Positions 6,480 through 63,317 of a DNA stretch of 64,000 nucleotides are shown piece after piece. The notes under the pieces were generated by a model. That model did not search any database, was not told where the DNA came from, and saw nothing but the letters and a program-made list of their open reading frames with translations. A program made the position numbers and the translations under genes. This stretch comes from Tetracentron sinense (taxonomy: Eukaryota; Streptophyta; Magnoliopsida; Trochodendrales; Trochodendraceae). Position 1 is the stretch's first letter; each line of letters opens with the position of its first letter. The DNA lies in contig CM026552.1 in NCBI GenBank assembly GCA_015143295.1, positions 62,614,944 through 62,678,943 on the forward strand, written 5' to 3'.

Positions 6480-7149
6480 ATAAATCCTCATGGGTGATGA
6501 GTGATTTTGTTATTGTAATATGTACATCGTAATCCTTTTTTTAGTGACTTTAGCATAATACTTTTGTTAGTGACTTTGGTAAACATTTGGTGATATTTTG
6601 ATGAAATGTTGATGCTTTGATGGAATCATAGAATTTTTTGGATATTAAAATGATAGTATGACTTATTATTGCTTAATGTCATGTTTCTAATGTAATATAT
6701 ATTTTTTAATTTTTTTTTTTTCCCGAAGTTTTCCCGACTTTACAGAATTTTTCCGAACTTGGCCCCCGCCGAATTATTCTCAAACCCCGACTTTGTCACT
6801 ATGGGTGACACCTAGGCGATAGGGGGTCCCCAAGGCGAGGCGATGCCTAGGGAACCAAAATTTACTTTTTATGTTTATAATATATTATATAAGATTTAGT
6901 GAACGTCCACCTAGATCATTATCTAGCCAATAGGAGTTGTAGCACCCCGGACTTTTTCATCCTTAATGAATAGCACCTTCATAGCTAATTGGTCGTTTTT
7001 GTAGTCTAATTAATAAATAAGGGAAAAATCGAAAATTCCGAAACGTCAGAAATGTTCGTTTTCGAAAGACGGATCCAACGCAAGTTGAATCGTCGAAATC
7101 CGACGAGCGAGTCAAAAGATATGGTCAAAACAGTCCAGACATACAGAGC

Positions 7150-7335
7150 ACCGATCGCTTGGTCCAGTTAGCGATCGATCGGTCCATAACCGATCGATCG
7201 GTAGCTATCGCACGGTCAGAAATTTTGTATGGGGAAATTTTCCAGAGAGTGAGTTTTTGACCGGTCAATCGGTCATAAACACCGATCGATCGGTAGGCAA
7301 CCGATCGATCGGTCATAACCACCGATCGCTCGGTC
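7150..7335 (+). promoter_or_regulatory. palindrome cluster of LTR A
   Basis: Eight or so copies of the dyad CCGATCGATCGG or one-arm variants (CCGATCGCTTGG, GCGATCGATCGG) at about 20-35 bp spacing. The two halves of the cluster are separated by the segment TTTTGTATGGGGAAATTTTC. Confidence 0.75.
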
Positions 7336-8310
7336 TTCGCGTTTTTGCAGAAATTTCAGTAAGGGCGTTTTCGTCTTTTGGGGGTTAAACCCTTTCTCCT
7401 TAAGGCTTGCCCGAGCCTTAGGGCATCATTCACTATACTTAGAGAGATTTGGGAGATAAGAGAGAAGAGAAAAGGGTTTCCTAAACCTAGGTTGCTTTTG
7501 GAGAAGAAATCAAAGGGGTGAAGACCCTAGATCGTCCCCAAGCACGCTTTCTTCAAGATTTCGACTCAAGCTCGGGTGGGGTGCATTCTCAAAGCTAGGG
7601 CAGCCCTCACTCACGTTTTTTAAAGGGATTTCTTCCCCAACTCAAGCTTCTTTCAAGCAAAGGCTTCATCTTTCAAGGTAGGAGCTTCAATCAAGGTCCC
7701 TACCAAGGATCAAGCCTTGATTCAAGGTTAGTACACCCTACTAACTTCCCCTAACAATAACCTAGTTTTTCTATAAACTATATGATTTTGCTACTATGTA
7801 TTTCCCCTTATGAAATGTATCATATTCACTAAATATAAACAAGGTGAGGAAAAATGGTGTGAATGCATGGATGAGAGGTTGATTTAGGCGATGGGATGCC
7901 GAATGTATGGTGTATGAATGTGTGGTGTGAAGAATGGAAAATGGAGGATGGGCATTTTACCAATAATGAACATACCTTGATTTTTGGATGGAAAGTAGGC
8001 ACTAAAAAAGAAGAAGATGAACCATTAAGGAACCTTGCATGTTATGTATTTGACAAAATGCCTAAACTAGGAATAAATGACATAAATGAAGAAAATGAAA
8101 GTAGGCCTTATGCATGTGTTCTTATGAATGATGAACTATTCAAATGCCACGTAGATTACTCAAATTCCTATATGGTTATACTGTGGATTGAATTGCTATA
8201 CACTACTCTTCATGTCATATTGTCATCATGATATTACAAGTGCTACACACACCACACATGCATGCATGAAACCGGGTTTTCCAAGATTGTATTTGTATAT
8301 GATGAATCAA

Positions 8311-8710
8311 GAACATGACAAGGAGGTTGGTAGCCCAAGGAAGGGTGCTAGCCTCTGGCTCACAAGAGAAATGGAACAAGAACATGACAAGGAGGTTGGT
8401 AGCCCGAGGAAGGGTGCTAGCCTCTGGCTCACAAGAGAAATGGAACAAGAACATGACAAGGAGGTTGGTAGCCCGAGGAAGGGTGCTAGCCCCTGGCTCA
8501 CAAGAGAAATGGAACAAGAACATAACAAGGAGGTTGGTAGCCCGAGGAAGGGTGCTAGCCTCTGGCTCACAAGAGAAATGGAACAAGAACATGACAAGGA
8601 GGTTGGTAGCCCAAGGAAGGGTGCTAGCCTCTGGCTCACAAGAGAAATGGAACAAGAACATGACAAGGAGGTTGGTAGCCTAAGGAAGGGTGCTAGCCTC
8701 TGGCTCACAA
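8311..8710 (+). repeat. 69-bp minisatellite of LTR A (6 units)
   Basis: Units start at 8311, 8380, 8449, 8518, 8587 and 8656; the last is partial. Because 69 is a multiple of three, long open frames appear on both strands, but these are a by-product of the repeat. Each unit can fold as GGTTGGTAGCCC pairing with GGGTGCTAGCC across an AAGGAA loop, using several G-U pairs. Confidence 0.9.
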
Positions 8711-8919
8711 GTATACAAGTCAAGAACAAATCAAGACATGAAATACAAGACAAGACACGACACACATACATGATTTGACCGAGGTTTTTGCATTCATACA
8801 CGCATGTCAAGATATGGCTATGTATCTTATGCTTTCACTATTGCTTTAAATTAATATCTTGTATTGCTCACTGTTGTTATGCTTTCGCTATTGTTATGGT
8901 TAGCTAGTAGTTTGTACTC

Positions 8920-8940
8920 GCTGAGTATTCCATGCTCAGC
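8920..8940 (+). other. conserved GCTGAG/CTCAGC hairpin, copy A
   Basis: Perfect 6-bp stem with loop TATTCCATG, 18 nt before the 3'-splice-like site. The same hairpin occurs in every LTR copy that reaches this point; in copy C its outer pair is changed on both arms. Confidence 0.6.
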
Positions 8941-8958
8941 CGTACTTTTATGTCGGCA

Positions 8959-9090
8959 GGTACTGTGGATGTCCTCGACCCCGAGCCTTGGGTCGAGGAG
9001 GAGTATGTAGAGGAGAGGGAGCCACCTATCCCATGGCAGTCTCAGGAGGATGGGGACTTGGAGGTGTGGCCATACCTCGACCACTGTTGA
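8959..9090 (+). CDS. LTR-internal acidic frame, copy A
   Basis: From GGT at the AG/GT junction the frame runs 43 codons to TGA, with the core DPEPWVEEEYVEE and a variable tail. In-frame upstream ATGs exist at 8932 (in the hairpin loop) and 8950 (ATGTCGGCAGGT). Whether it starts there or is joined to an upstream exon is unknown. No known domain. Confidence 0.4.
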   Translation, partial: GTVDVLDPEPWVEEEYVEEREPPIPWQSQEDGDLEVWPYLDHC

Positions 9091-9374
9091 GAGGAGAGGG
9101 TTAGAGAGTTCATTTTGTATTTTGATAGGTGGGCATGTCCACCTTTACTTTGATTGTATTTGGTATATGTTAACTTGGAATACTATTTGGAGTTATAGAA
9201 GAAAAGAAAAAGTTGGCTTATGCTTCCGCACTTATGTTTAGTTTCCGCGCTCTGATTATCATTGTATTATATTATGTTTAGCCTCTTGCATTACAGGATG
9301 GTTTGACAGGTACACGTAGTCACCTCTAAAGTATCCCTTAACTCCTAGGGGGTATTTTGGGGCGCGACAGGAGT

Positions 9375-16635: not shown

Positions 16636-17025
16636 GGGATCCTATTTCGGGGTATTAGAGTACTCTACCTATTTCTAACCTAATTTGGCAAAAAGGGAGA
16701 GAAAACCTAGGGTTTTGAGAGAGGGATTTCTTGGAGAAGAAGGAGATAGGTTGGATTTTGCAAGGAGAGCTTGGAAAGCTACCCCAAATCACCTCGGGAG
16801 CATTTTGAATGTAGAGCCCCGGACCTTTTCACAGTTAATGCATGACACTATCCGTTGTCATTTTGCCTTTTTAAGAGGTATAATTAATAAATAAGGAAGA
16901 ATTTCGAAATTTCAAAATGTCAGAAGTGTTCCTTTTCGAAGTACGAACACAACGCAAGTTGAATCGTCAAAATCGGATGAACGAGTCAAGAGATATGGCC
17001 AAAACAGTCTGGACCTACAGGCAAT

Positions 17026-17297
17026 CGTAGCTCGGTTATGCGCTAAGGACGTAGCTCGGAAGGCGCTAGGGACGTAGCTCGGTTATGCGCTAAGGACGTA
17101 GCTCGGTTATGCGCTAAGGACGTAGCTCGGAAGGCGCTAGGGACGTAGCTCGGTTATGCGCTAAGGACGTAGCTCGGTTATGCGCTAAGGACGTAGCTCG
17201 GAAGGCGCTAGGGACGTAGCTCGGTTATGCGCTAAGGACGTAGCTCGGTTATGCGCTAAAGACGTAGCTCGGTTAGGCACTAAGGACGTAGCTCGGG
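17026..17297 (+). repeat. 23-24 bp minisatellite in LTR D
   Basis: About eleven units of CGTAGCTCGGTTATGCGCTA plus AGGA, alternating with a CGTAGCTCGGAAGGCGCTAG form. Each contains TAGC and GCTA arms. Confidence 0.9.
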
Positions 17298-17317
17298 CAA
17301 CGTGCTCTGATAAGGCA

Positions 17318-17732
17318 CAGACAACGGGTACGTCTTGCAGCAGACAACGTGTACGTTGTACTGCACAACGGGCACGTTGTACATAAGACAACGGACTACG
17401 AGTTCAGCACTATGCACGACACAACGTAACAACGGGCTTGGCACCCTTCACACCGCACAACGAGTTGGCGCTATTCACAGCACAACGAGTTGGCACTATT
17501 CACTGCACAACGAGTTGGCACTGTTCACCGCACAACGAGTGGGCACTGTTCACCGCACAACGAGTGGGCACTATTCACAGCACAACGAGTTGGCACTGTT
17601 CACCGCACAACGAGTGGGCACTATTCACAGCACAACGAGTTGGCACTGTTCACCGTACAACGAGTGGGCACTTTTCACAGCACAACGTGTTCAGCACTGT
17701 TCACAGTACAATGTGTTTGGCACTGTTCACAG
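17318..17732 (+). repeat. 25-bp ACAACG minisatellite in LTR D
   Basis: Early units are dyads such as ACAACGTGTACGTTGT; from 17454 on they become CACAACGAGTTGGCACTATT-type units, about ten copies. Long open frames here result from the repeat and are not called genes. Confidence 0.88.
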
Positions 17733-18639
17733 TCCTCGCGTCTTTGCAGAAATTTCAGTAAGGGTATTATGGTCTTTTGGTCGGTTCACTCTTACCTTAA
17801 GAGTTTAACCCGGGCCTTTAGGGCATCATTCGACACTTAGAGAGTTTGAGAGAATAGGAGAAAGGGGATAAGGCGATTCCAACCTAGGGTTTCCATTTTG
17901 GAGAGAAATCAAAGGGTTTTGAGACCCTAGATCACTTCCAGTCGGGTTTTTCTTCGAGATCTCGGCTCAAGCTCGTGTTCCAAGCTAGGGCAGTCACTCA
18001 CAGTCGTTTGGAAGAGGGATTTCTTCCTCATTTCTTCAAGGTCGGTACTTTTTACTACCCTCCTAGTTATAGTTCCTCCTTTCCCTCTATTTTCTTTTGA
18101 TTTTCTTTCATTTACACTTGTGTTATGAGATTGGTGGTATGAATGGTGAATGGAGGTGGATGTTGGCGAATGGATGCCGTGTGGATGATGTGATGAATGA
18201 ATGGGAAAGGGCATTGTACTAATAATGAACATACAAGTGTGATGTGAGCATAACCCACCTAGAAAAGCATGATTTAGGTTTAAATGAATAATGAATAATG
18301 AACTCACCATGTTTGATGAAATGCCAAGGTGAATACAGTGAGTTGTAAATTAGGAAATGCATGCCTAATAAATCTTGGATATTGCTAGGGCCTATGACAG
18401 TGTGTTTCTTGCTTTCCCTAAATGATATGAATATTACATTGCTCCATCATTGATGTTATACGTGTTGTGAAATTACCCAAATGTCATGTTTAAATTTAAA
18501 TGCAAGTATGTACACGGTTTCCACGAGCACGGCATGCATGACATGATTTATCGATGTTGTCAAGAACATGGTTAGAGGTGGGACATATCCTACGATATGT
18601 TTTACCTCGCTTTTCACAAGAAGACAAGAACCAACATTA

Positions 18640-18790
18640 CACGAGGGGTCTCCCCTCATTCACAAGTGCATATCATGAAGAAGGGCCTCCCTTCCCTCGC
18701 AAGTACATACATATCATGAAGAAGGGTCTCCCTTCCCTCGCAAGTGCATTGCATAAAGAAGGGTCTCCCTTCCCTCTCAAGGCATCTCTC
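18640..18790 (+). repeat. hairpin array of LTR D
   Basis: Four units. The first is GAGGGG-TCT-CCCCTC (18643-18657); the others are GAAGGG-(C/T)CT-CCCTTC (second at 18680-18694). The A-to-G and T-to-C changes keep the stem paired. The array lies between the splice-like donor and the conserved hairpin. Confidence 0.75.
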
Positions 18791-19158
18791 AAGCGCATCT
18801 CACAAGGACACCTCACAAGTGTATCTCACAAGTTACATGATCACAAGCAAGCACGCATGACATGCATGACATGACACGACATACAAGAATCAAGCAAGAT
18901 AGACAAGACAAGCTTTCAAGTACGAAAAGAGATTTCAAGCCAAGTCAAGTGCACGATGTTTTCAAGAGGTTTTATCGGTTTTCTACGAAATACAAGCATG
19001 ATTATAAATTGCTTTACTTCCTTGTATGATATAATTGTTTCTGTCTAACATATATGAATTGCACCTGCTTTATGTATGCTATCCGTATGCTATGACTGTT
19101 GGTTAGTGCTTAGTACCCGCTGAGTATTACATGCTCAGCCGTACTTCTTATGTCGGTA

Positions 19159-19269
19159 GGTTATGAGGGAGCTGCTGCTCCATTTGATGTTTGTGCTCCT
19201 GGTCCATGGGTGGAAGAGGAGTACGTCGAGGAGCCTTTGGAGGAACCTCCAGCAGAGGGTTACCAATAG
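19159..19269 (+). CDS. LTR-internal acidic frame, copy D
   Basis: 36 codons to TAG: APFDVCAPGPWVEEEYVEE preceded by a short Gly/Ala lead. An in-frame ATG (ATGTCGGTAGGT) lies just upstream. Confidence 0.4.
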   Translation, partial: GYEGAAAPFDVCAPGPWVEEEYVEEPLEEPPAEGYQ

Positions 19270-20266
19270 GTGGTTGTAGATTCTGAGTGGATTAGCTGTG
19301 GGTGAGATGAGAGTTAGATTCATGTATTTTGGCGGGCATGTCCGCACTTTCTTTTGGTGACTTTTTGTATAAACTTGGATTTGCGTATGTATATACATAG
19401 AGGTTTGGTAGTCTTCCGCTGTACTATGTTAGAGTATGTTGCCGCTGTTTATATCCTCTATTGTATATGCTCTGTGGGTTTTGCAGGTTAGTTGTCAAGC
19501 AAGTCATGATTAGTCGTCCAAAGTTCACTCTAACTCCTAGGGTGGGTTTTGGGTCGCGACATTGAATCCAAGGGAAGGATTCCTAAGGTCGATATACTAT
19601 CCTAATCAACTCTATTTTAATGTTTTGTGAATGTTAATATGATAGGAATGATAGAATAGAGATTAGATGCATTTTTCCCAAATTTTCTATGAAGTAAGTT
19701 ATTATGGATGGAAATGTGAAGGGAAATGTGGATTTGAATGTGGATAGAATGTATGGAGGATGGGATTAATATGTGGATGTTAATAGTGAATGGATTGTAT
19801 GAATGGATTATGGTTTGATGAATGCTTGAAAATGTAGAAGGGCAATGAATTCATATTATGCGTACCCAATGTGTTTGTGAATATGCTTGAGAGGATAAAT
19901 GCTATAATACTCTTATGAAATGGTAGTAAATTGATTATGAATTGTGATATGAATTATGATAAGATATGTATATGTGATTGTTCGTTAAGTATGTCTAATT
20001 ACTTGCATGGAAATTGATAGTCGGGAAGGTAAGAACTTAGAGAAAAATCTCTCGAACCAGAAATTCTCTAACTATTTGGTATGAGACAGTATAGTGGAGT
20101 TTCTATGGTGGGAGATTGGAATCTAAGCAATTACCAACTCGAATGTTAATTTCGACACTTAAGCACATATGCACGTGTATGTTAAGATAAGAGTCTCACA
20201 AGTCACACATGTGGACCACAAGCATGAGCATGACATACGTATGACATTCTGAATAAGCATAAGCAT

Positions 20267-20617: not shown

Positions 20618-20734
20618 GGTTTAAAGCAGGAGTACACGACGGAGTCGTGGATTGAGGAAGCTTACATTGAGGAAGCAGGAGAAGGTGAGCCTTCCGAGGA
20701 AGGAGCCGGAGGCTTGGGCGTCTATACCTCTTAG
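20618..20734 (+). CDS. LTR-internal acidic frame, copy C
   Basis: 38 codons from the AG/GT junction to TAG. The core has drifted to ESWIEEAYIEEAGEGE while the acidic aromatic pattern (W..EE.Y.EE) is kept. No in-frame ATG just upstream; AG/GT is intact (TTGGCAG/GT). Confidence 0.35.
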   Translation, partial: GLKQEYTTESWIEEAYIEEAGEGEPSEEGAGGLGVYTS

Positions 20735-23675: not shown

Positions 23676-23810
23676 GGTGCACGGGCCCCTTTTGATTTGT
23701 GTGGTGTAGAACCTTGGGTAGAGGAGGAGTACTTCGACCCAGAGCCTTCCATGGATCACTATCAGGACGATGGTCTGTTAGATAGGTGTCGAGACTTCAA
23801 CTTTTGTTGA
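23676..23810 (+). CDS. LTR-internal acidic frame, copy E
   Basis: 44 codons to TGA: APFDLCGVEPWVEEEYFD and on. In frame with the hairpin-loop ATG. The distance from hairpin to junction is 2 nt longer than in copy J, yet the downstream frame is kept. Confidence 0.4.
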   Translation, partial: GARAPFDLCGVEPWVEEEYFDPEPSMDHYQDDGLLDRCRDFNFC

Positions 23811-27238: not shown

Positions 27239-27337
27239 CTACTGATAACCCTCTACGGGAGGTTCCTCGACGTACTCCTCCTCCACCCATGGACCAGGAG
27301 CACAAACATCAAATGGAGCAGCAGTTCCCTCAGAACC
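27239..27337 (-). CDS. LTR-internal acidic frame, copy F
   Basis: 32 codons: APFDVCAPGPWVEEEYVEE then PPVEGYQ and stop. In-frame ATG just upstream (ATGTCGGCAGGT). Confidence 0.4.
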   Translation of the reverse strand, partial: GSEGTAAPFDVCAPGPWVEEEYVEEPPVEGYQ

Positions 27338-33188: not shown

Positions 33189-33469
33189 TGTCGCACCCCA
33201 AAATACCCTCTAGGAGTTAAGAGATACTTTAGAGGTGACTATTCGTACCTATCAAACCATCCTATAATGAACAAGGTAAACATGATACAATAATACCAAT
33301 AATCAGGGTGCGAAAGCTAATCATGAGTGCGGAAGCGTGAACTAACTTTTTCTTTTCTTCTATAACTCAAAACAGTATTCCAAGTGAACATATACATGTA
33401 CATCAAGTCAAAGGTGGACATGCTCACCTATCAAAATACAAAATGAGAAACCTCGGAATCCTCTCTCTC

Positions 33470-33616
33470 TCAGTAATCACCCCCGTGGGGCCAATGGTCT
33501 AAGTTCCTCGCCTCGGCCTGAGGCTCAACTACCGACTCCTCATATGGTTCTTCCTCGCCGTAGTCTTCCTCAACCCAAGGACTCGGGGCATAAATGTCAA
33601 AAGGGACCCGTGCACC
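33470..33616 (-). CDS. LTR-internal acidic frame, copy H
   Basis: 48 codons: VPFDIYAPSPWVEEDYGEEE and a long acidic tail. In-frame ATG upstream. Confidence 0.4.
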   Translation of the reverse strand, partial: GARVPFDIYAPSPWVEEDYGEEEPYEESVVEPQAEARNLDHWPHGGDY

Positions 33617-33942
33617 TGCCGACATAAAAGTATGACTGAGTATGGAATACTCAGCGAGTACAAGCTACTAGCTAATCATAGCAATAACAAAGCACAATAG
33701 TAATAACCACAATACACAATAATCAATTTTAAGCAACACTAGCAACATATGACATTTATAGCATTGAAAATAAAGCAATATAAATATCTTGATATGCGTT
33801 CATGGATGCGAAAACTCCAATAAATCTCATGTTTGGAAACCTATTGCACATCTCGGTCTTGCTTGTGAAAATCATGCATGCGTGTCTTGCCTTGTTTGGA
33901 TTCACATGTCTTGCTTGGTCTTGACTTGTTCTTAACTTGTAT

Positions 33943-34200
33943 ACTTGTGAGCCAGAGGCTAGCACCCGCACATCCCTGGGCTACCAACCTCATTGACATT
34001 TCATTTACTTGTGAGCCAGAGGTTAGCACCCTTTACTTGGGCTACCAACCTCCTTGACATGTACTTGTTTCATTTTCTTGTGAGCCAGAGGCTAGCACTC
34101 TTCACTTGGGCCACCAACCTCCTTGTCTTGTTTCATTTACTTGTGGGCCAGGGGCTAGCACCCTTCACTTGGGCTACCAACCTCCTTGACTTGTTTCATT
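33943..34200 (-). repeat. 62-68 bp minisatellite of LTR H
   Basis: Four units related to the 69-bp unit of copies A and K, with arms GGTTGGTAGCCC and GGGTGCTAGCC. Confidence 0.85.
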
Positions 34201-35166
34201 TAAATACTCATGCTTAAAAACATCGGTTCATGCATGCATGCGTGGGTGTGTGTAGCACTTGTAGTAATCATGATAACATGTGCAACAAAAGGGAAGATGT
34301 ATAACATTTTTGTTCTTAATAAAATCATGCAAGAATTTAAACAACATATGGAGCATTTGGTCAACGTATCATTTTTAAGGAAACCACATAGAGCCTACTT
34401 TCATTTTCTACCCGTTAAATCCATTAAATTCTGATTTCGGTATTTTCCCGAACACATGGCGTGCAACTCATTTATAGTCATTTCATTTTGATTCCTTAGT
34501 GCATACGTTTCATCAGACTCATAAAGTGTGTTCATTATGCTTGAAATACCCATCCACCATTTTTCTAACACACATTCATCATATCACAACAGGGCATCCA
34601 ATCACCTCAATCCCTTCATCCATCCATATATCCCACCATTCATTTCATCTTGTTTATAATTTAGGGAGATAGCATATTTCAACATAAAAGAGAAGTGGGG
34701 AAGATTCAATGTACATTCACTTAAAAAAATCCTAGGTTATTACTAAGGTAATTAGTAGGGTGTACTAACCTTGAGATCAAAGCTTGATCTTGGATGGAAA
34801 CCCTTTATTGAAGCTCCAACTTGGAAGAGGAGAACCCTTGCTTGAAGGATGCTTGATTGGGGAAGAAACCCTTTGAAAATACCATGGAAATGCTATCCTA
34901 GCTTGGAGGAGGGACTCCACACGTGCTTGAGGTTGGGTTGGAGAAATCCAAGCTTTTGGAATGATCTTGGGTTCTCAAACCCTTGATTCTTCTCTCACCA
35001 AATGATGCCCTAGAAAAAACCCTCTTCTCCTCTCTCCCTTTCTCTCTAATGCTCTAAGTATAGTGAGTGGGGACCCAAAAGCTCGAGCAAGGCCTATAAG
35101 GCCAAGGGGTGCTGGCCAAAAGACTAAAACGCCCTTATTGAAATTTTTACAAAACACGAAAGACAG

Positions 35167-35358
35167 AGCGATTGGTGGTCAGGACCGAGCGATCGGTCGC
35201 TTACCGAGCGATTGGTGTTTTTGACCGAGCTCTTGGTTGAAAACACCCTCTCTGGAAAGATTTCCCATGCAAAAAATTTAACCAGTCGATAGATACCGAT
35301 CGATCGGTTGTGGACCGATCGATCGCTATATTGGACCGAGCGATCGCTAGAGATCGGT
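35167..35358 (-). promoter_or_regulatory. palindrome cluster of LTR H
   Basis: CCGATCGATCGG and CCGATCGCTCGG-type sites, several with one decayed arm. Confidence 0.65.
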
Positions 35359-35583
35359 GTTCTATAATTTTGGCACATTTTATTGTTTCGGCCATAACTT
35401 TTGACTTGTTCGTCGGATTTTGACGATTCAACTTGCATTGGATTCATCTTTTGAAAAGAAATATTTCTGGTGTTTTAGAATCTTCAAATTCTTCTTTATT
35501 TATTAATTACACTACGTGAAAGGTCAATTGGCTATGAGAACACTGTTCATTATGTACAAAAAGTTCTGGGTTGCTACATCCAC

Positions 35584-36479: not shown

Positions 36480-37812
36480 GGGGGTTACCTTTGGGGTTTT
36501 TTTTGGCTTATCCAAAACCTAAAGAGAGTAAGAGAAATTGAGAGAGAAGGGATTGGAGAGGAGAAGGAAGGGAGGATTTGGGGATTTCCAAGAGGGGCTT
36601 TGTGGAGATCAAGGGGAGTCCAAATCAAGCTTGGATCATCCTCTTAAGCAAGGATCTTCATCCTCAAGTGGTGGTGTCTTCTTCTTCAAGTGAGATTACA
36701 AACAAAGGGGTTTTCTTCAAGTTGAGGGTTAATCTTCAAGGTTAGTACACTCTACTAATTAACTAAGTAATAACCTAGTTCCTCTTTCAAAAATGATGTT
36801 CTTGAGTTTGGTTACCACTTTCTTTGAAATACAACTACTATCCTTAATTGAACAAGATAAATAGAAATGATACAAATGTGTGGGAGAAAACATGAAATAA
36901 ATAAATATAAGAATGTTGCATACCACTTGTTTGATAAAATGCATGAATGACTTTGGAAACCAAGACTAAGGAAATGAACGACTACGAAATGCTTGCATGC
37001 CAAATGTTTGATAAAATGTATAAATGAGAATTAAATGAGTTTGATGAAAATTATGAAAGCACGAATCACGTAATTCTTCTTATAATACAATTGTTGATGT
37101 ATGTTTTCCCTATTGCTTATTTATCACATGATTTTAAGAAGGATTAAGATGTAATATGTTTCACTTGAACTTCTTATGATAGAAAATCTTCATGAATTAA
37201 CATACACCAAAAATGCATGCATGAACCAAACTTTTAAACATGAGTATACATACAAGAAACATTAGAACAAGAAATGTGATTTGTGAAACAAGCACAAATG
37301 TCAAGGGTAGGGCAAATCCCTAGGATATGTCATACCTGGCTCGCAAGTAAACAAGCATGAATGTCAAGGGTAGGGCACATCCCTAGGATATGTCATACCT
37401 GGCTCACGAGAAAACATGACAAGCAAGAATAAAGAAACATGGAAGGATGTTAGTGTACTAAGGCCAGGTACGGGCACTAACATCTATTCTCCAACAAGTA
37501 TGAGAGGATGTTGGTATACTAAGACCAGGTACGGTGTCACGACCCAAAATACCCCCTAGTAGTTAGGATACTTTGGCGACGTGAACTCATAACCAAACCA
37601 TCCTATAATACATATGAATCCTGTACAACATATAAAACCTGTGATAGCGGAAGCGTAATACTAATCTATATATGGTAGTGGAAGCGGACTACAAAATTTC
37701 TATCAATAGTATATGTCTCAGTTTATACATGACCCAAAATAAAGAGCGAACATACTCGCTCAACAAAATATATGTACATGTCTCTCCCTCTCGTCACTCA
37801 TGATGGGGCCAC

Positions 37813-37935
37813 CTAACAAAAGCCCTCTGCTCCTCCTGAGCCCTCTGCTGCTGAAGACCAAGTCTCCTCCTCCTCAACATACTCTTCCTCGACCCATGGT
37901 TCTTGAGGACGCTCGCCGCAAATGTCGAAGGGACC
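37813..37935 (-). CDS. LTR-internal acidic frame, copy J
   Basis: 40 codons: GPFDICGERPQEPWVEEEYV then EEEETW and a Gly/Ser tail. In-frame ATG (ATTATGTCGGCAGGT). Confidence 0.4.
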   Translation of the reverse strand, partial: GPFDICGERPQEPWVEEEYVEEEETWSSAAEGSGGAEGFC

Positions 37936-38189
37936 TGCCGACATAATATGTACGGCTGAGCATGGAATACTCAGCGTATACAAACCACTAGATAGTAATA
38001 TCATAAACAGTAATCCAACATATATCACGGTTTATCATTTCACATGCATTTCTGAAATCAGCGCGGAAAACAAAATCATATCATGTGCATATATCTCAGA
38101 AAATACTATCGGAAAACATCTTCTTATCATCTTTTGTCTTTTACATCTTCTTATCATATTTTTTTTTCTCATCTTGTACCTTTGCATAT

Positions 38190-38252
38190 ACGGGTATTTA
38201 AAATACCTTGGCTTTTATCTTTTACTATCCTGTACGGGTATTTAAAATACCT
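38190..38252 (-). repeat. GGTATTT/AAATACC dyads of LTR J
   Basis: Two copies of a perfect 7-bp dyad about 42 bp apart, within a looser repeat region of J that reaches about 38460. Confidence 0.6.
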
Positions 38253-39551
38253 TGGTATTCATCATTTGCTACCTCCGGAGTAGGACAACTAGTACCTGTA
38301 CCCACGTAAACTGGGTGGCCTAATGTTCTCCTCACCTTCGGCTACCTCAAGGGTAGACGACCAGTATCCATCTCCCTTCCGGGCGGCCTGCTATCATCGG
38401 AGTCCGATGCGGGTATCCCTTTCCCTTTCAGGCGGCCTGCTATCGTCGCATCCCTGTCGGCTTTTTTTTCCGTATACTTTCCATCTTCTTGTAACATCTT
38501 ATGCTTTTTGTATTTTCCGTATGTATCTTGTGCTTCTTATGCTTTCCGTATACATCTTGTGCTTCTTGTACTTTTCTTGTACTTCTTTTGCTTCTTGTAC
38601 TATTCATGTGGATCATTTACATCTTATACTTTTCATGTAATTTATTTGCGTCTTATACTCTTCTTCTTCTTATTCTTGTATTGCATCTTATATACATGGA
38701 CTTCTTCTTTTGGATACCCATAATATAGAAAAACTCGATCATGCATATGCGTATGTGTCCGTGTAGCAATTGTGATATAACATAGTAGACATTAGGGAAA
38801 ACCCTTTACATATAGTCATATGTCTCATACTCAACATAATTCATCCATCACCATAATCCATATACAATAACATCACACCATTCCAATCACATTTAAAATA
38901 AGGTTTTTCTCCTTATTCTTCCCAAAACTTGTTGCTTTTAACATGCTTTTCATCTTGGATACTAACATATAGAACAACTCAAAAATTACCATCTTTTATT
39001 TGTTGGTTGAAAGCATAACATCATCACATTTAATTCACACCATCATTCATGGGATTTTATCTTGATGTAGAAAGGGTTTCATGAAATCAATTTCTAGAAG
39101 AGTGTATTTTTACATATAAGAGGCTATATATAACTATACTTGTCAAGAAAATCATGCTTTTCATTAAGGGTTTATGAAATTAGAACCTAGTAGAGTGTAT
39201 CTACCTTATGGGATGAAATCCCTTTGATCCAATGCTTGAAAAGGCTTGAAGAAGCTTGTAGAAGTGAAACCCAAGCTTGATGTTGGAGATCCAAGCTCCA
39301 ATGGCGCGTAGGAGCGAGATCAAGGCTCGATTTGTGCTCTTCTTCTCCAAATCCAAAAACCCTTCTTGCAATCCTCCACTCTCTTCCCTCCTCCTCTCTA
39401 GGTTTAGGGATCGCCCTCTCCTCTCTTCTTATCTCCCAATCTCTCTAAGTGCTGTGAATGAAGCCCTAAAGGCTCGGGCAAACCCTGATGGGTAAGGGTT
39501 TAAACCCCAAAAGACGAAAAAGCCCTTAATGAAATTTCTGCAAAACGCGAA

Positions 39552-39737
39552 GACCGAGCGATCGGTGGTTATGACCGATCGATCGGTTGCCTACCGAGCG
39601 ATCGGTGTTTATGACCGATCGACCGGTCAAAAACTCACTCTCTGGAAAATTTCCCCATACAAAATTTCTGACCGTGCGATAGCTACCGATCGATCGGTTA
39701 TGGACCGATCGATCGCTGACTGGACCGAGCGTTCGGT
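39552..39737 (-). promoter_or_regulatory. palindrome cluster of LTR J
   Basis: CCGATCGATCGG and CCGAGCGATCGG sites, nearly identical in order to those of copies A and K. Confidence 0.75.
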
Positions 39738-41022
39738 GCTCTGTATGTCTGGACTGTTTTGACCATATCTTTTGACTCGCTCGTCGGATTTCGACGATTC
39801 AACTTGCGTTGGGTTCGTACTTCGAAAACGAACATTTCTGACGTTTTGAAATTTCCAATTTCTTCCTTATTTATTAATTATACCTCTTTAAAGGCAAAAT
39901 GGCAACGAAAGTGTCATGCATTAAATGTGAAAAGGTCCGGGGCTCTACATACGGGTACTAGCATCTGTCTCCAAGTAAAATGACAAGTATGAAAGGATAC
40001 TAGTGTACTATGACCAGGTACGGGCACTAGTATCTATTTCTAAGACATGAATAATATGAAAATATGCTAGTGTACTAAGACCAGGTATGAGCACTAGTGT
40101 ATGTTTCCAAGACAAGCATTAAAGGGTGTTAATGTACTAAGACCAGGTACGGGCATTAACATATGTTTCCAACAAGTATGAGAGGATACTAGTATACTAA
40201 GACCAGGTACGGGTACTAGTATCTGTCTCCAAGCAAGAATAAAGAATTATGGAAGGGTGACAATGTACTAAGACCAGGTACGGGCATTATCATCTATTCC
40301 CATTCAAGCAAGTAACAAGCAGGTATGCATGATTCTCACAAGGCAAGAATAATCTCATAAGATGTGTAAGGTAACCACAAGATACACAAGATGCATAAGG
40401 AACTCATAAGGTAATTGAAACAAGATTGGTTAAAGCATGAACATAAGGCATGATTTACTACAGGATATTCAAGAAGTTTACCTTTGTTGTTACTTGTTCT
40501 TGCTTCCGCACTCTGATTTTAAAAATGTGATGATGAATTGTATTATGTATGTTATGTTATCATTATTACTATTGTTAGCTAGTAGCTTGTACTCGTTGAG
40601 TATTTCATACTTAGCCGTACTTTTATGTCGACAGGTACACTGCGATATATAGACTCTGGTCCCTTGGATCGAGGTAGCTCAGAGAGAGCAGGAGGTTATT
40701 CGGATGGTTAGCCAGATGTTAGGGGCTGGCCTGTGGCCATAGAGTTGAAATGAGAGAGAGAGAGAGACATGTATTTTGAGATTTTCTTTTGGAGATTTTT
40801 CATGTGAGCTTGAGTAGGTAACTCAAGCAATGGTACCCCTTGTGATCATTGTATTTTATTCAGTCGTTGTTTATATTGACACTTGAAATTACATTTATTT
40901 TAAAGAAATTTTCTGGATCACTATTTGGCATGCCTTATATACTCTTTGCAAGGTTGGTTTAAGGTCAAGTCACGTCCAAAAGTGTCCTAGCTCCTAGGGG
41001 TATTTTGGGGCACGACACAAAT

Positions 41023-42122: not shown

Positions 42123-42567
42123 GATATGGAGTTCTGCTAAAATACTTTCCTTAGTCGGTTTTTTTTTTAATACTATTTGGGTTTTTAACCAACTTTTAGA
42201 AACTTCTAAACATTGAATTGAGTTCCCTATTTATATAGAATCCTTCTACTTCATGGAATACAACTTAGGGAATGTGTGGAGAGTGGTTTTGTCACGCCCC
42301 AAAATACCCCCTAGGAGTTAAGGGATACTTTAGAGGTGACTACGTGTACTTGTCAAACCATCCTGTAATGCAAGAGGCTAAACATAATATAATTCAATGA
42401 AAATCAGAGCGCGGAAACTAAACATAAGTGCGGAAGCGTAAGCCAACTTTTCTTTTCTTCTATAACTCCAATTAGTATTCCAAGTTAACATATACCAAAT
42501 ACAATCAAAGTAAAGGTGGACATGCCCACCTATCAAAATACAAAAGGAACTCTCTAATCCTCTCCTC

Positions 42568-42699
42568 TCAACAGTAGTCGAGGTATGGCCACACATCCAA
42601 GTCCCCATCCTCCTGAGACTGCCATGGGATAGGTGGCTCCCTCTCCTCTACATACTCCTCCTCGACCCAAGGCTTGGGGTCGAGGACATCCACAGTACC
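42568..42699 (-). CDS. LTR-internal acidic frame, copy K
   Basis: 43 codons, differing from copy A at only a few residues (DPKPWVEEEYVEE). Both upstream ATGs are in frame. Confidence 0.4.
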   Translation of the reverse strand, partial: GTVDVLDPKPWVEEEYVEEREPPIPWQSQEDGDLDVWPYLDYC

Positions 42700-42983
42700 T
42701 GCCGACATAAAAGTACGGCTGAGCATGGAATACTCAGCGAGTACAAACTACTAGCTAACCATAACAATAGCGAAAGCATAACAACAGTGAGCAATACAAG
42801 ATACTAATTTAAAGCAATAGTGAAAGCATAAGATACATAGCCATATCTTGACATGCGTGTATGAATGCAAAAACCTCGGTAAAACTCATGTCTCGGAAAC
42901 CCTTTTCGTGTCTCGGTCAAATCATGTATGTGTATCGTGTCTTGTCTTGTATTTCATGTCTTGCTTTGTTCTTGACTTGTATA

Positions 42984-43320
42984 CTTGTGAGCCAGAGGCT
43001 AGCACCCTTCCTTGGGCTACCAACCTCCTTGTCATGTTCTTGTTCCATTTCTCTTGTGAGCCAGAGGCTAGCACCCTTCCTGGGGCTACCAACCTCCTTG
43101 TCATGTTCTTGTTTCATTTCACTTGTGAGCCAGAGGCTAGCACCCTTCCTGGGGCTACCAACCTCCTTGTCATGTTCTTGTTTCATTTCACTTGTGAGCC
43201 AGAGGCTAGCACCCTTCCTTGGGCTACCAACCTCCTTGTCATGTTCTTGTTTCATTTCTCTTGTGAGCCAGAGGCTAGCACCCTTCCTTGGGCTACCAAC
43301 CTCCTTGTCATGTTCTTGAT
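42984..43320 (-). repeat. 69-bp minisatellite of LTR K (5 units)
   Basis: Same unit as in copy A with one unit fewer; open frames on both strands are repeat by-products. Confidence 0.9.
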
Positions 43321-44290
43321 TCATTTCATATACAAATACAATCTTGGAAAAACCCGGTTTCATGCATGCATGCGTGCTTGTGTGCTTGTCAATAGTAGTA
43401 ATCATGATGACATACTTGAACGGGCGGATCACATGACTATGGCATTTCAATCCTTAACATAGTGGTATGAAAATTTAGGCAACATATAGCACATTTGAGC
43501 AATTTATCATTTCTAAGAACAATTACACAATTTCTATTTCCATTTTCTTCATTAAGTCCATTTATCCCTTGTTTAGTCGTTTTATCAAACACATAGCATG
43601 CAAGGTTCCTTAATGGTTCATCTTCTTCTTTTTAGTGCCTACCTTCCATCCAAAAATCAAGGTATGTTCATTATTGGTAAAGTACCCATCCACCATTTCC
43701 ATCACACACATCACCCAACATACACCTCGGCATCCAATCGCCACATCAACCCCCACACACATCCATACCTTTTTCTTATCTTGTTTAGGTTCATTGGAGA
43801 TGATACATTTCATATGGGAGGCAAACATAATAGCATAAATCACATTTCATAAGGAAAACCTAGATTTATTGCTAGGGTAAGTTAGTAGGGTGTACTAACC
43901 TTAGATCAAGGTTTGATCTTGAAGAAACCTTGATTGAAGCTCCAACTTGAAAGATGAAGCCTTTGCTTGAAAGAAGCTTGAGTTGGGGAAGAAACCCCTT
44001 TCAAAAACGTGCTTGGTTGCTGCCCTAGCTTGGAGAATGAGTCCCCACACGAGCTTGAGCCTTGAACTTGAAGCAACTCGAGTTGGGGTGAGCTAGGGTT
44101 CTTAAACCCCTTTGATTCCCTCTCCAAATGGAAAACCCTAGTTGCAAATCCCCTTCTCCTTTCTCTCTATCTCTCAAAATCCCTTAAGTTCTGTGAATGA
44201 AGCCCTAAAGGCTCGAGCAAGCCTTAAGGAGAAAGGGTTTAACCCCCAAAAGACGAAAAAGCCCTTAATGAAAATTCTGAAAAACACGAA

Positions 44291-44509
44291 GACCGAGCGA
44301 TCGGTGGTTATGACCGATCGATCGGTTGCCTACCGAGCGATCGGTGTTTATGACCGATCGATCGGTTGCCTACCGAGCGATCGGTGTTTATGACCGGTCA
44401 AAAACTCACTCTCTGGAAAATTTCCCCATACAAAATTTCTGACCGTGCGATAGCTACCGATCGATCGGTTATGGACCGATCGATCGCTGACTGGACCGAG
44501 CGATCGGTC
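44291..44509 (-). promoter_or_regulatory. palindrome cluster of LTR K
   Basis: CCGATCGATCGG sites; one 40-bp segment (CCGAGCGATCGGTGTTTATG onward) is duplicated relative to copy J. Confidence 0.75.
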
Positions 44510-45420
44510 TTCTGTATGTCTGGACTGTTTTGACCATATCTTTTGACTCGCTCGTCGGATTTTGACGATTCAACTTGCGTTGGGTTCGTCTTTCGAAAAC
44601 GAACATTTCTGACTTTTCGGAATTTCCGATTTCTCCCTTATTTATTAATTTGACTACAAAAACGGCCAATTAGCTACGAAGGTGCCATTCATTAAAGATG
44701 AAAAAGTCCGGGGTGCTACAGGTTTTAAGTTTCTCCAGAGGTTATAGAACCTATGGAAATTGTTGTTCTCTTCCCTCTTTGTTAGGTGCATTCAACCTAG
44801 AGAGTGCAAGCCAAAAGTTCCAATTTTGCTTGTTTTGACTTGTCCTTTGAAGGAGTCCATCTAGGTGTTGATTTCTATAAAACCATCAACCCGTTCTGGA
44901 TAGAACACCTTGGCTGGAGTGTTATGGAGCCTTTGCGAAGGAGATCGATCCGAGATGGATCGTGGATGTGTGACGTGGTCGGTGGAATCCGAAGCTGTCA
45001 TTGATGGAGATCGATCAGAAGATTGTGGACTGTTTTTGAGACACAAAGAGAAGTACGAGCGGCTGTAGTTGATCACGGGACTTGAGAGTACGTGATGACT
45101 TTTCGAGGTGTGGAGGACTAAGAATTGAAGGATCGAAGTGTCGAGTCCGAAGGAGTCAAGTTCGAGTCTTGTAAGTTCTTGTTTACTTTGTCTTAGTGGA
45201 TTCTCATGGCTGGACTAGGTCCCGTGGTTTTTCCTGGAAGGGTTTCCAATTAAAAATCCTTGTGTTATGGTTTGCTTGGTTTTCTATTTCCACACTTAAA
45301 TTTTATCATCCCTTAAGCTAATAACTTAATTGTTAAAATCATCAAAAGGGTAGATAGACTTTTAGGGAAACCAAACCATCCCCTTGAACTTGTGAGATTC
45401 TCAACTCAAACATCGGATTT

Positions 45421-49638: not shown

Positions 49639-49719
49639 CTAAAGCTCCACAGAATACTCTTCCTCACCATAGTCCTCTTCGACCCATGGACCGGGAGCAC
49701 ATGTATCAAAACCTACACC
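49639..49719 (-). CDS. LTR-internal acidic frame, copy L
   Basis: 26 codons: GFDTCAPGPWVEEDYGEEE then YSVEL. The upstream ATG is lost (AAG) but AG/GT and the frame are kept. Confidence 0.35.
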   Translation of the reverse strand, partial: GVGFDTCAPGPWVEEDYGEEEYSVEL

Positions 49720-56413: not shown

Positions 56414-58540
56414 GTTGTCCTTCTTTGTCAGAGGGTGTGGGCACGTGAGCGACAAAGACTATAAGACCTCAATTTTGCACGTGCGAAAAACTTGTGAGTT
56501 TGAAGACAAAAGAGTCAAAAAAAGAAAAATTAATTATACTTAGACTGCTTACCACAAATGGAATTCTAGAGGACGGGATTGATGGGAGAACCTGTTCGGC
56601 TTTTGGGGGATACAGAGGAGAAATGGATGGTTCATACTTATGATAAAACATTCGAGATATGGGAGAGATAGCTCTTCGCCTCATTGCGGAGGGAAAACAG
56701 AAGCATACTCATGTCTGGAGTATATAAAAAGGGATGGCAACACATTACGATGTCAGCCAGATTGAAAGACGTATGACAAGCAGGGCGATGTCAACCGAAT
56801 CAAATGTGCTTTTAACTTCTTCATGGAAAGGATTGATTTTAAAATGTTGCTTTTAGCCTCTTCACAGGAGGGATCGATTTTGAATTGTTGCTTTTAACCT
56901 CTTCACAAGAGGGGTTGATTTTAAAGTGTTGCTTTTAACCTCTTCATAGGAGGGATCGATTTTGAAGTGTTGCTTTTAGCCTCTTCATAGGAGGGATCGA
57001 TTTTGAAGTGTTGCTTTTAGCTTCTTCACAGGAGGGATCGATTTTGAAGTGTTGCTTTTAGCCTCTTCGTAGGAGGGATCAATTTTGAAGTGTTGCTTTT
57101 AGCCTCTTCACAGGAGGAATCGATTTTGAAGTGTTACTTTTAGCCTTTTCACAGGAGGGATAAATTTTGAAGTGTTGCTTTTAGCCTCTTTACAGGAGGG
57201 ATCGATTTGAAGTGTTGCTTTTAGCCTCTTCATAGGAGGGATTGATTTTGAAGTGTTGCTTTTAGCCTCTTCACAGGAGGGATCGATTTTGAAGTGTTAC
57301 TTTTAGCCTCTTCACCGGAGGGATCGATTTTGAAATGTTAGCTGAGTTGAAATTTGAAGGTTCTGAGGTTGAAATTGAGATTGAAATTAAGGATGATCTC
57401 ACGCTTGCTCGGGCTGTTGCTTCGAATCGAGTTTGAGTCGGACTTTGTTGATGCTTTGAGCGATTGTCAAGACAAGGTTGATCTAACCAAATCAAAAATG
57501 GACAAAGAGTTTTTTTTTTTTCAAGTTGAACCCTTGCCCTTGAAGAAGTTAAATAAGATGACAAGAGGTCCTGACCTACTTAGAAATATTGCGTGAAGTA
57601 GTGGAAACTAATTCTGACTTCCCCACCATATGCTAAATCCCTGCTTGCTTTACCAAGAGCTTTGGATTGCGGTAGTGACACATTTCTCTGAACCCAAAGA
57701 TGGATTACTAGGACCGGTAAGATTTATACCCTTTTGGAACTTGAGGTGACGCCTTCTGCCGGATATTTCGCTTGAATTTTATCTTAACTTTTCCCTTTTT
57801 TGCCCTTGGAACGACCAAGTCTAGGGGTCGCATAATTTTTGCGCATGAGGCCATTTCTGGTTTTCACTCATGCCTGTGAAGTTGGTAACAATTTTTTCAT
57901 TTTTTGCCCCTAATAACGATATTAGGTTTGGGATCGCATAATTTTTGCGCACCAATGCCATTTCTGGTTTTCATTGAGCTTGCGATTTTGAAATGGATTA
58001 TCTCCTCTCATCATTGCCTTGTGGGTACTTGTATCTTGCTCGAGTACTTATTTATTTGATTATCTGCACTCTTAACCTCTAGGGGATCTAAGAGGACTTG
58101 AGGTAGGACGAAACGTGGGCTTGGGGGTTCGAATTTTTAGGGCACCCTTTTCTCATTTTTCCCTTGAGAGCCTCTTTATGCCAACTTTTTCCTTTTTCTT
58201 TCTGATTTTTGGCTCTGTTTTTCCTTTGCTTAGATTTTCCGTCTTTTTTTCTTTCATGGAGGCTATTTTTTTTCTCAACTAGGTGATTATTTTTTACCGC
58301 GCCTGTTTCTCAGGTTGCCTACTTACCCTTTCCAGGATCAGGTCATGACGTAGTTCAACTGGTGGTGGTGCCCTGGTATAGAAGTGTAATGAAAGAAAGG
58401 CTTGTAAGGCTCGAAGGGCTTACTAGCGAATTTCATTGACAAAATTTGAAAATGTTACAAAAGACTAGGATGAATGATGTGCCAACATGGCCTCCTATCA
58501 TTTCCCTAATTGATTAAGAGTACAGACAATTTCTAAACAA
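56414..58540 (-). other. 3' untranslated region of the Tat-type element
   Basis: Lies between integrase and 3' LTR. Besides the 41-bp array, it has AT-rich text with two CGCATAATTTTTGCGCA dyads at about 57829 and 57937. No coding frame recognised. Confidence 0.5.
56803..57340 (-). repeat. 41-bp minisatellite in the Tat 3' region
   Basis: About 13 units of GAAGTGTTGCTTTTAGCCTC plus TTCACAGGAGGGATCGATTTT. Each has CCTC and GAGG arms; one unit extends this to CCTCTT/AAGAGG. Confidence 0.9.
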
Positions 58541-63206: not shown

Positions 63207-63317
63207 GGTACTGAGGGAGCTACTGCTTCATTCGACATCTGTGCTCCTGGCCCATGGGTGGAGGAGGAGTACGTTGAGGAACCTGTGGAGGAACCTCAGG
63301 TCGAGGGCTACTACTAG
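63207..63317 (+). CDS. LTR-internal acidic frame, copy M
   Basis: 36 codons: ASFDICAPGPWVEEEYVEE then PVEEPQVEGYY and stop. The near ATG is ATT here, but the hairpin-loop ATG is in frame. Confidence 0.4.
   Translation, partial: GTEGATASFDICAPGPWVEEEYVEEPVEEPQVEGYY

Follow-up and report, generated by a model that had tools for sequence, protein, structure and literature searches.

An acidic reading frame in long terminal repeats of Tetracentron sinense chromodomain Ty3/gypsy elements, a probable alternative terminal exon of gag

Background

Little is known about how plant Ty3/gypsy elements produce Gag in excess of Pol. A stretch of 64,000 nt of the Tetracentron sinense genome (assembly GCA_015143295.1, contig CM026552.1, positions 62,614,944 to 62,678,943 of the forward strand; hereafter the window) raises the question of why the long terminal repeats (LTRs) of such elements should keep a short acidic reading frame behind a shared AG/GT. 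The frame considered here is housed in a solo LTR of 2432 nt (6938-9369, + strand) that is flanked by a 5-bp target duplication, GGAGT. As detailed below, it probably represents an alternative 3'-terminal coding exon that would be joined by splicing to a donor located at the end of gag. Genome-wide searches were run on the source assembly (1.16 Gb in 1479 contigs).

Results

A conserved acidic frame within the LTRs

The frame is preceded by GTCGGCAG, opens with GT and runs for 42 codons to a TGA stop ending at 9090; it occupies positions 8960-9090 (+), the start at 8959 given in a preliminary description of the window being the G of the AG. Nine other copies were located in the window by tblastn. 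Four lie in solo LTRs: 42568-42698 (-) in LTR 42290-44720, 19160-19269 (+) in LTR 16810-19561, 37813-37934 (-) in LTR 37535-39949 and 33470-33615 (-) in LTR 33189-35578. The others correspond to 27239-27336 (-) in a further LTR, 63208-63317 (+) in an LTR followed by a primer binding site, which is the 5' LTR of an element leaving the window, 49639-49718 (-) with a premature TAG, 23677-23810 (+) in another family and 20619-20734 (+) in the most divergent family (SWIEEAYIEE). All five LTRs mapped at both ends (6938-9369, 16810-19561, 33189-35578, 37535-39949 and 42290-44720) are solo with 5-bp target duplications.

The ten copies all display AG|GT followed by the frame in the same phase, as the preliminary description had it, and their lengths range from 27 to 49 codons when the GT codon and the stop are counted. 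The distance from the AG to the PW(V/I)EE core varies by multiples of three in all ten, which agrees with the earlier remark that length changes keep the frame. In the shortest copy (27 codons, 49639-49718), the same frame continues past the premature TAG as ...RDLDMWPYDKADF*, much like its relatives, and an 11th LTR fragment at ca. 40550-40750 (+), outside the earlier list of ten, retains the site with its frame disrupted. Gap lengths within the exon are divisible by three in 13 of 15 LTR pairs, a test in which only pairs with several gaps are informative because both exon ends are frame ends. The encoded tails are acidic, with 8-14 D/E and 0-3 K/R in the ten window copies, and W, E, E and Y are invariant in nine aligned tails, one further sequence (L075) having F for Y.

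Outside the window, a 35-aa tail query returned 28,926 first-look candidates, and 149 of the 150 E-type tail places that were scored lack an internal stop, these being the best by score, a ranking that favours intact copies. With the divergent tail (20619-20734) as query, 3,742 candidates were obtained and an internal stop was found in 21 of the 150 scored. The phase relative to AG|GT is kept in 42 of 45 motif places, with one off phase and two without the site; these belong to 44 loci picked by similarity, one of which failed to match the search expression. A conserved acidic frame is thus present inside these LTRs.

A predicted 3' splice site ahead of the frame

The 40 nt that precede the AG differ by 2-23% between LTRs, as compared to 21-57% at 40-250 nt upstream, and are the lowest in 15 of 15 pairs; the DNA further upstream is indeed free to drift, as had been noted. 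The 230 nt that follow the stop differ by 9-55%, again more than the 40 nt before the AG in 15 of 15 pairs. The exon has a GC content of 49-59%, with flanks at 35-45% and 30-43%, and is T-poor (20-30%) between T-rich flanks. The predicted acceptor, ...CGTACTTTTATGTCGGCAG, spans 8941-8959 (+), and a hairpin GCTGAG...CTCAGC located directly 5' of it at 8920-8940 (+) pairs two competing AGs and may affect splicing. Since the 40 nt before the AG are the most conserved and since an in-frame ATG is missing in four of the ten window copies, the AG|GT looks like a 3' splice site followed by a terminal exon.

The ATG is also central to a different explanation, a free-standing small open reading frame (ORF) or upstream ORF whose translation would begin at an ATG of its own, ATGTCGGCAGGT, located nine nt 5' of the GGT codon. 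Such an ATG occurs in six of the ten window copies, and a protein search with a tail profile gave 33 candidates and a single match (E 0.021), a deposited 47-aa protein in which the tail lies behind an upstream Met. However, the copies devoid of the ATG include the two most different families (23677 and 20619), AG|GT is common to all ten, and conservation centres on the AG side, which includes the hairpin. An ATG-started ORF was therefore rejected as the ancestral design, and we regard this explanation as unlikely.

A spliced intron between gag and pol

Full-length relatives of these LTRs contain, between paired LTRs, gag, protease, reverse transcriptase (RT), RNase H, integrase and a chromodomain-like end. 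Pfam searches with the ORFs of one element (L051) gave gag, zinc knuckle, protease, RT, RNase H, SH3_Tf2-1 and H2C2 above the cut-off, while the chromodomain (23.1 bits, cut-off 25.1) and the integrase core (23.3 bits, cut-off 32.6) were sub-threshold at the expected places. By this domain order, which is that of chromoviruses, the relatives are classified as chromodomain Ty3/gypsy elements, and they may be members of the Tekay/Del clade, to judge by LTR length, primer binding site and chromodomain. Tekay elements have been reported in seed plants only, according to the account in PMC6317226. In element L009, the pol stop is separated from the LTR by ca. 110 nt that include the polypurine tract AAGGGGGGGAGAATG, and pol also stops ahead of the LTR in the other copies inspected, with no frame continuous into the 3' LTR of the kind that defines CRM group A.

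In these elements a phase-1 intron lies between gag and pol; it starts with GTACGC or a near variant, ends with CAG and is 137-148 nt long in the 24 copies measured. Its removal gives the frame DDVVQ-G-[A/T]LLVNE-LARVL. The GT...AG borders are kept in 26 of 26 copies examined, including L049 and L050, which were left unmeasured because a base change before the GT defeated the donor expression but in which GT and AG are present in context. In the 24 measured copies, the intron has a GC content of 28-35% between flanks of 53-64% and 38-49%, its length is 0, 1 or 2 modulo 3 in 13, 4 and 7 copies, respectively, and a gag-frame stop always occurs within it.

Precise intron-less junctions were found in at least 40 genome copies, with none for a reversed-pattern control. 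All six intron-less copies that were read cross the junction in frame, although two (L079 and L082) have stops elsewhere, and the intron-less L083 matches the intron-bearing L050 with 94.5% identity on one side of the junction and 98.8% on the other. From these comparisons, precise intron loss occurred more than once, in A-type and in E/M-type families, which fits the expectation if spliced RNA had been copied back. Splicing of the gag-pol intron is thus supported by the genome, and a spliced intron at the gag end is a trait of the BARE1/EVADE type of spliced-Gag strategy.

Which donor would serve the LTR acceptor?

The gag donor and the LTR exon are both in phase 1. In the divergent family, the intron is found in six of six loci (135-145 nt, phase 1), and the LTR exon is in phase in three of the six, the others having lost the site, being shifted or giving no match (one each). 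Because spliced copies exist for the gag donor and because its phase is right, it is the preferred partner of the LTR acceptor.

The exon could otherwise be the last one of Pol, an integrase tail with its donor close to where pol ends. The short distance of ca. 110 nt between pol and the LTR would suit such an arrangement, as would a phase-1 C|GTGAGG near the pol end of L013 and weaker phase-1 GTs that are shared. Yet E-type copies have GTGAA in place of the L013 site and L048 has lost it (CGC), and spliced copies are known for the gag donor only, none having been seen for a pol-end donor although none were sought. When two intact pol frames were compared, no strong phase-1 donor (GTRAG) occurred at equal places, so that the idea of a strong donor conserved near the end of pol was rejected, and we consider a Pol exon improbable.

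Selection on the exon

In a protein-guided alignment of nine sequences, pN/pS is 0.42 across 36 pairs, and differences at codon positions 1, 2 and 3 amount to 376, 362 and 685, respectively. In nucleotide alignments of three family pairs, the corresponding counts are 5/4/15 for F-F2, 6/3/11 for E-M and 19/16/29 for A-I. With the MG codon model of IQ-TREE, applied to 15 of 40 distinct sequences over 35 codons, lnL is -845.25 when omega is free and -884.66 at omega 1 (2 delta lnL of ca. 79), with a grid optimum at omega of ca. 0.15; restricted to 19 ungapped codons, the values are -485.3 and -520.6, with an optimum of ca. 0.1. Omega 1 is rejected, on sequences that were found via their own motif and a codon alignment that was built at the protein level, and the frame came through the dN/dS comparison proposed in the preliminary description. 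The substitution pattern indicates that the exon is under purifying selection.

These figures bear on the view that the region is maintained for a role at the RNA or DNA level, be it as a splicing enhancer, as hairpins or as part of a promoter or poly(A) region, the frame being a by-product. In favour of this view, GAGGAG is abundant in the exon, conservation is highest on the acceptor side, and a covarying hairpin follows the stop; but the changes pile up at third codon positions and omega 1 is rejected, which makes this view very unlikely. That the frame is a relic of a formerly coding LTR with no present use is scarcely credible given the selection between families and the near absence of stops among the best E-type places, despite decayed copies (the premature TAG copy, the 11th copy, L076 and L078) and the stops in 21 of 150 divergent-tail places.

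The hairpin after the stop lies at 9127-9144 (+), with 7 bp and a 4-nt loop (AGGTGGG-CATG-TCCACCT), and is found at the same place in other LTRs. Five of its seven pairs change on both sides over six sequences, and 88% of the cells are paired versus 29-57% in slid controls, the six rows having been chosen and aligned by eye; copies 23677 and 20619 show no clear hairpin.

Other features of the LTRs and of the window

Minisatellites occur in the middle of three LTRs, at 8302-8711, 42983-43397 and 17401-17715, with differing units of 69, 69 and 25 nt, respectively, and an array with a 41-nt unit lies at 56766-57412. Elsewhere in the genome, an LTR-internal-LTR-internal-LTR array (G000:C5, ca. 24.697-24.712 Mb, comprising L012 and L013) has three A-type LTR matches spaced by 7469 and 7468 bases.

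Discussion

The model that we favour is that the LTR carries an alternative 3'-terminal coding exon of chromodomain Ty3/gypsy elements. The donor that closes gag (CAAG|GTACGC, phase 1) would be joined either to the near acceptor ca. 140 nt further on, giving Gag-Pol, or to the far acceptor in the 3' LTR (GGCAG|GT), in which case splicing would bypass pol, the polypurine tract and the greater part of the LTR sequence that precedes the exon. The far joining would yield a Gag with an LTR-encoded acidic tail bearing the PW(V/I)EE core, the stop being in the last exon. This product would most likely be the principal structural form of Gag; its mRNA, although normally terminated, could not become a new element because it is devoid of the polypurine tract. 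A second use of the gag donor, with the acceptor in the 3' LTR, that skips pol and provides Gag with an acidic tail is, in our assessment, probable. The tail itself is most likely the C-terminus of the main structural Gag, the alternative being a regulatory Gag variant with a role like that suggested by analogy with CERV of Cer1 (see below). The preliminary description had assigned the frame no role; its conserved acidic nature stands, and the role can be narrowed to that of a probable Gag tail, with the AG/GT as a splice acceptor and gag as the proposed partner exon.

Several observations weigh against this model. Besides the ATG that precedes six of the window copies, equal phase alone would arise by chance in one case out of three, and the base before the donor GT is C in two of 26 copies (L010 and L046). 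In the divergent family, the equivalent junction pattern found no intron-less copy, and TAG replaces the last gag codon before the donor in two of six loci. Thirty weaker phase-1 GTs are common to the two pol frames, 18 of them being GTR in both, and another, weaker donor in pol is possible. Three genome pattern searches for a gag-tail junction copy returned two matches (L064 and L065, neither of them gag), one match unlike gag and none, respectively; as gag-LTR spliced RNA would be without the polypurine tract, no element should arise from it. At the protein level, the tail motif occurs in none of the 120 integrase homologues listed (7,995 scored), and a database search for Gag-sized proteins with the tail gave one candidate, with none scored.

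L064, which was found by a search for that very boundary, is a 3' LTR that lacks the stretch from ca. nt 212 to the acceptor and is joined exactly at AG|GT. It was rejected as a copy of spliced RNA, its upstream 5' LTR (L066) being full length with 92.6% identity before the join and 99.3% after; it may be a deletion or a chimera at a shared CAG. L065 was rejected as a junction copy because of a one-base insertion. At the place of the L064 join (ca. nt 212 of the LTR), L044 has GTAATC and L061 has GTAAGG after AG, a possible donor inside the LTR.

Parts of the proposed arrangement have parallels in known systems. BARE1, a Ty1/copia element of barley, has a facultative intron at the gag/protease border and a spliced subgenomic Gag RNA (PMC3735527); in both cases splicing would serve Gag production, but as described there the 104-nt intron of BARE1 shifts the frame and leads to a stop after Gag, whereas in the present elements removal of the short intron fuses gag with pol, and a separate Gag would depend on a far LTR acceptor with its own coding exon. 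Plant LTR elements are generally without introns, Ogre and EVADE being named as exceptions (PMC12786077). Ogre removes an intron between gag-pro and pol, thereby joining its ORFs, and EVADE makes a subgenomic Gag (PMC6317226, PMC12786077); both share with the present elements a functional intron but belong to other clades, and an LTR-encoded exon is unmentioned in the descriptions compared. A layout resembling the far joining is offered by Cer1, a Ty3/gypsy element of C. elegans, in which gag-frame exons are spliced past pol to 3' exons and the product, CERV, exports genomic RNA (PMC10309623). CERV is a long protein of 517 aa and, as judged from its description, apparently unrelated. Finally, the claim of the preliminary description that no protein is known to be encoded within a plant LTR at this site is too strong: in CRM group A centromeric retrotransposons, which are also chromoviruses, the 3' LTR is reported to encode a conserved C-terminal piece, the CR motif (PMC3059260). 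The site nevertheless differs, since the CRM polyprotein runs straight into the LTR, whereas here pol stops earlier and the exon lies ca. 2 kb inside, behind an acceptor. Among open-licence PMC papers searched by title and abstract start, there was no report of an LTR exon or of a gag-pol intron in this clade.

Conclusions

We give even odds to the broader proposal that this is an old strategy of a very abundant group of plant retrotransposons, in which one gag donor would choose between a pol and an LTR acceptor, the LTR would encode the C-terminus of a distinct Gag isoform, and each solo LTR of these families would carry a ready-made acidic terminal exon, in phase and open to capture by host genes. 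If the model is true, an abundant chromovirus with both a gag-pol intron and a Gag exon encoded by its LTR would represent a further design of such elements and would account for the conservation of one part of these LTRs. Solo LTRs would then spread coding exons with splice acceptors across the genome, and the LTR may be a coding part of the element, beyond its function as a control region.
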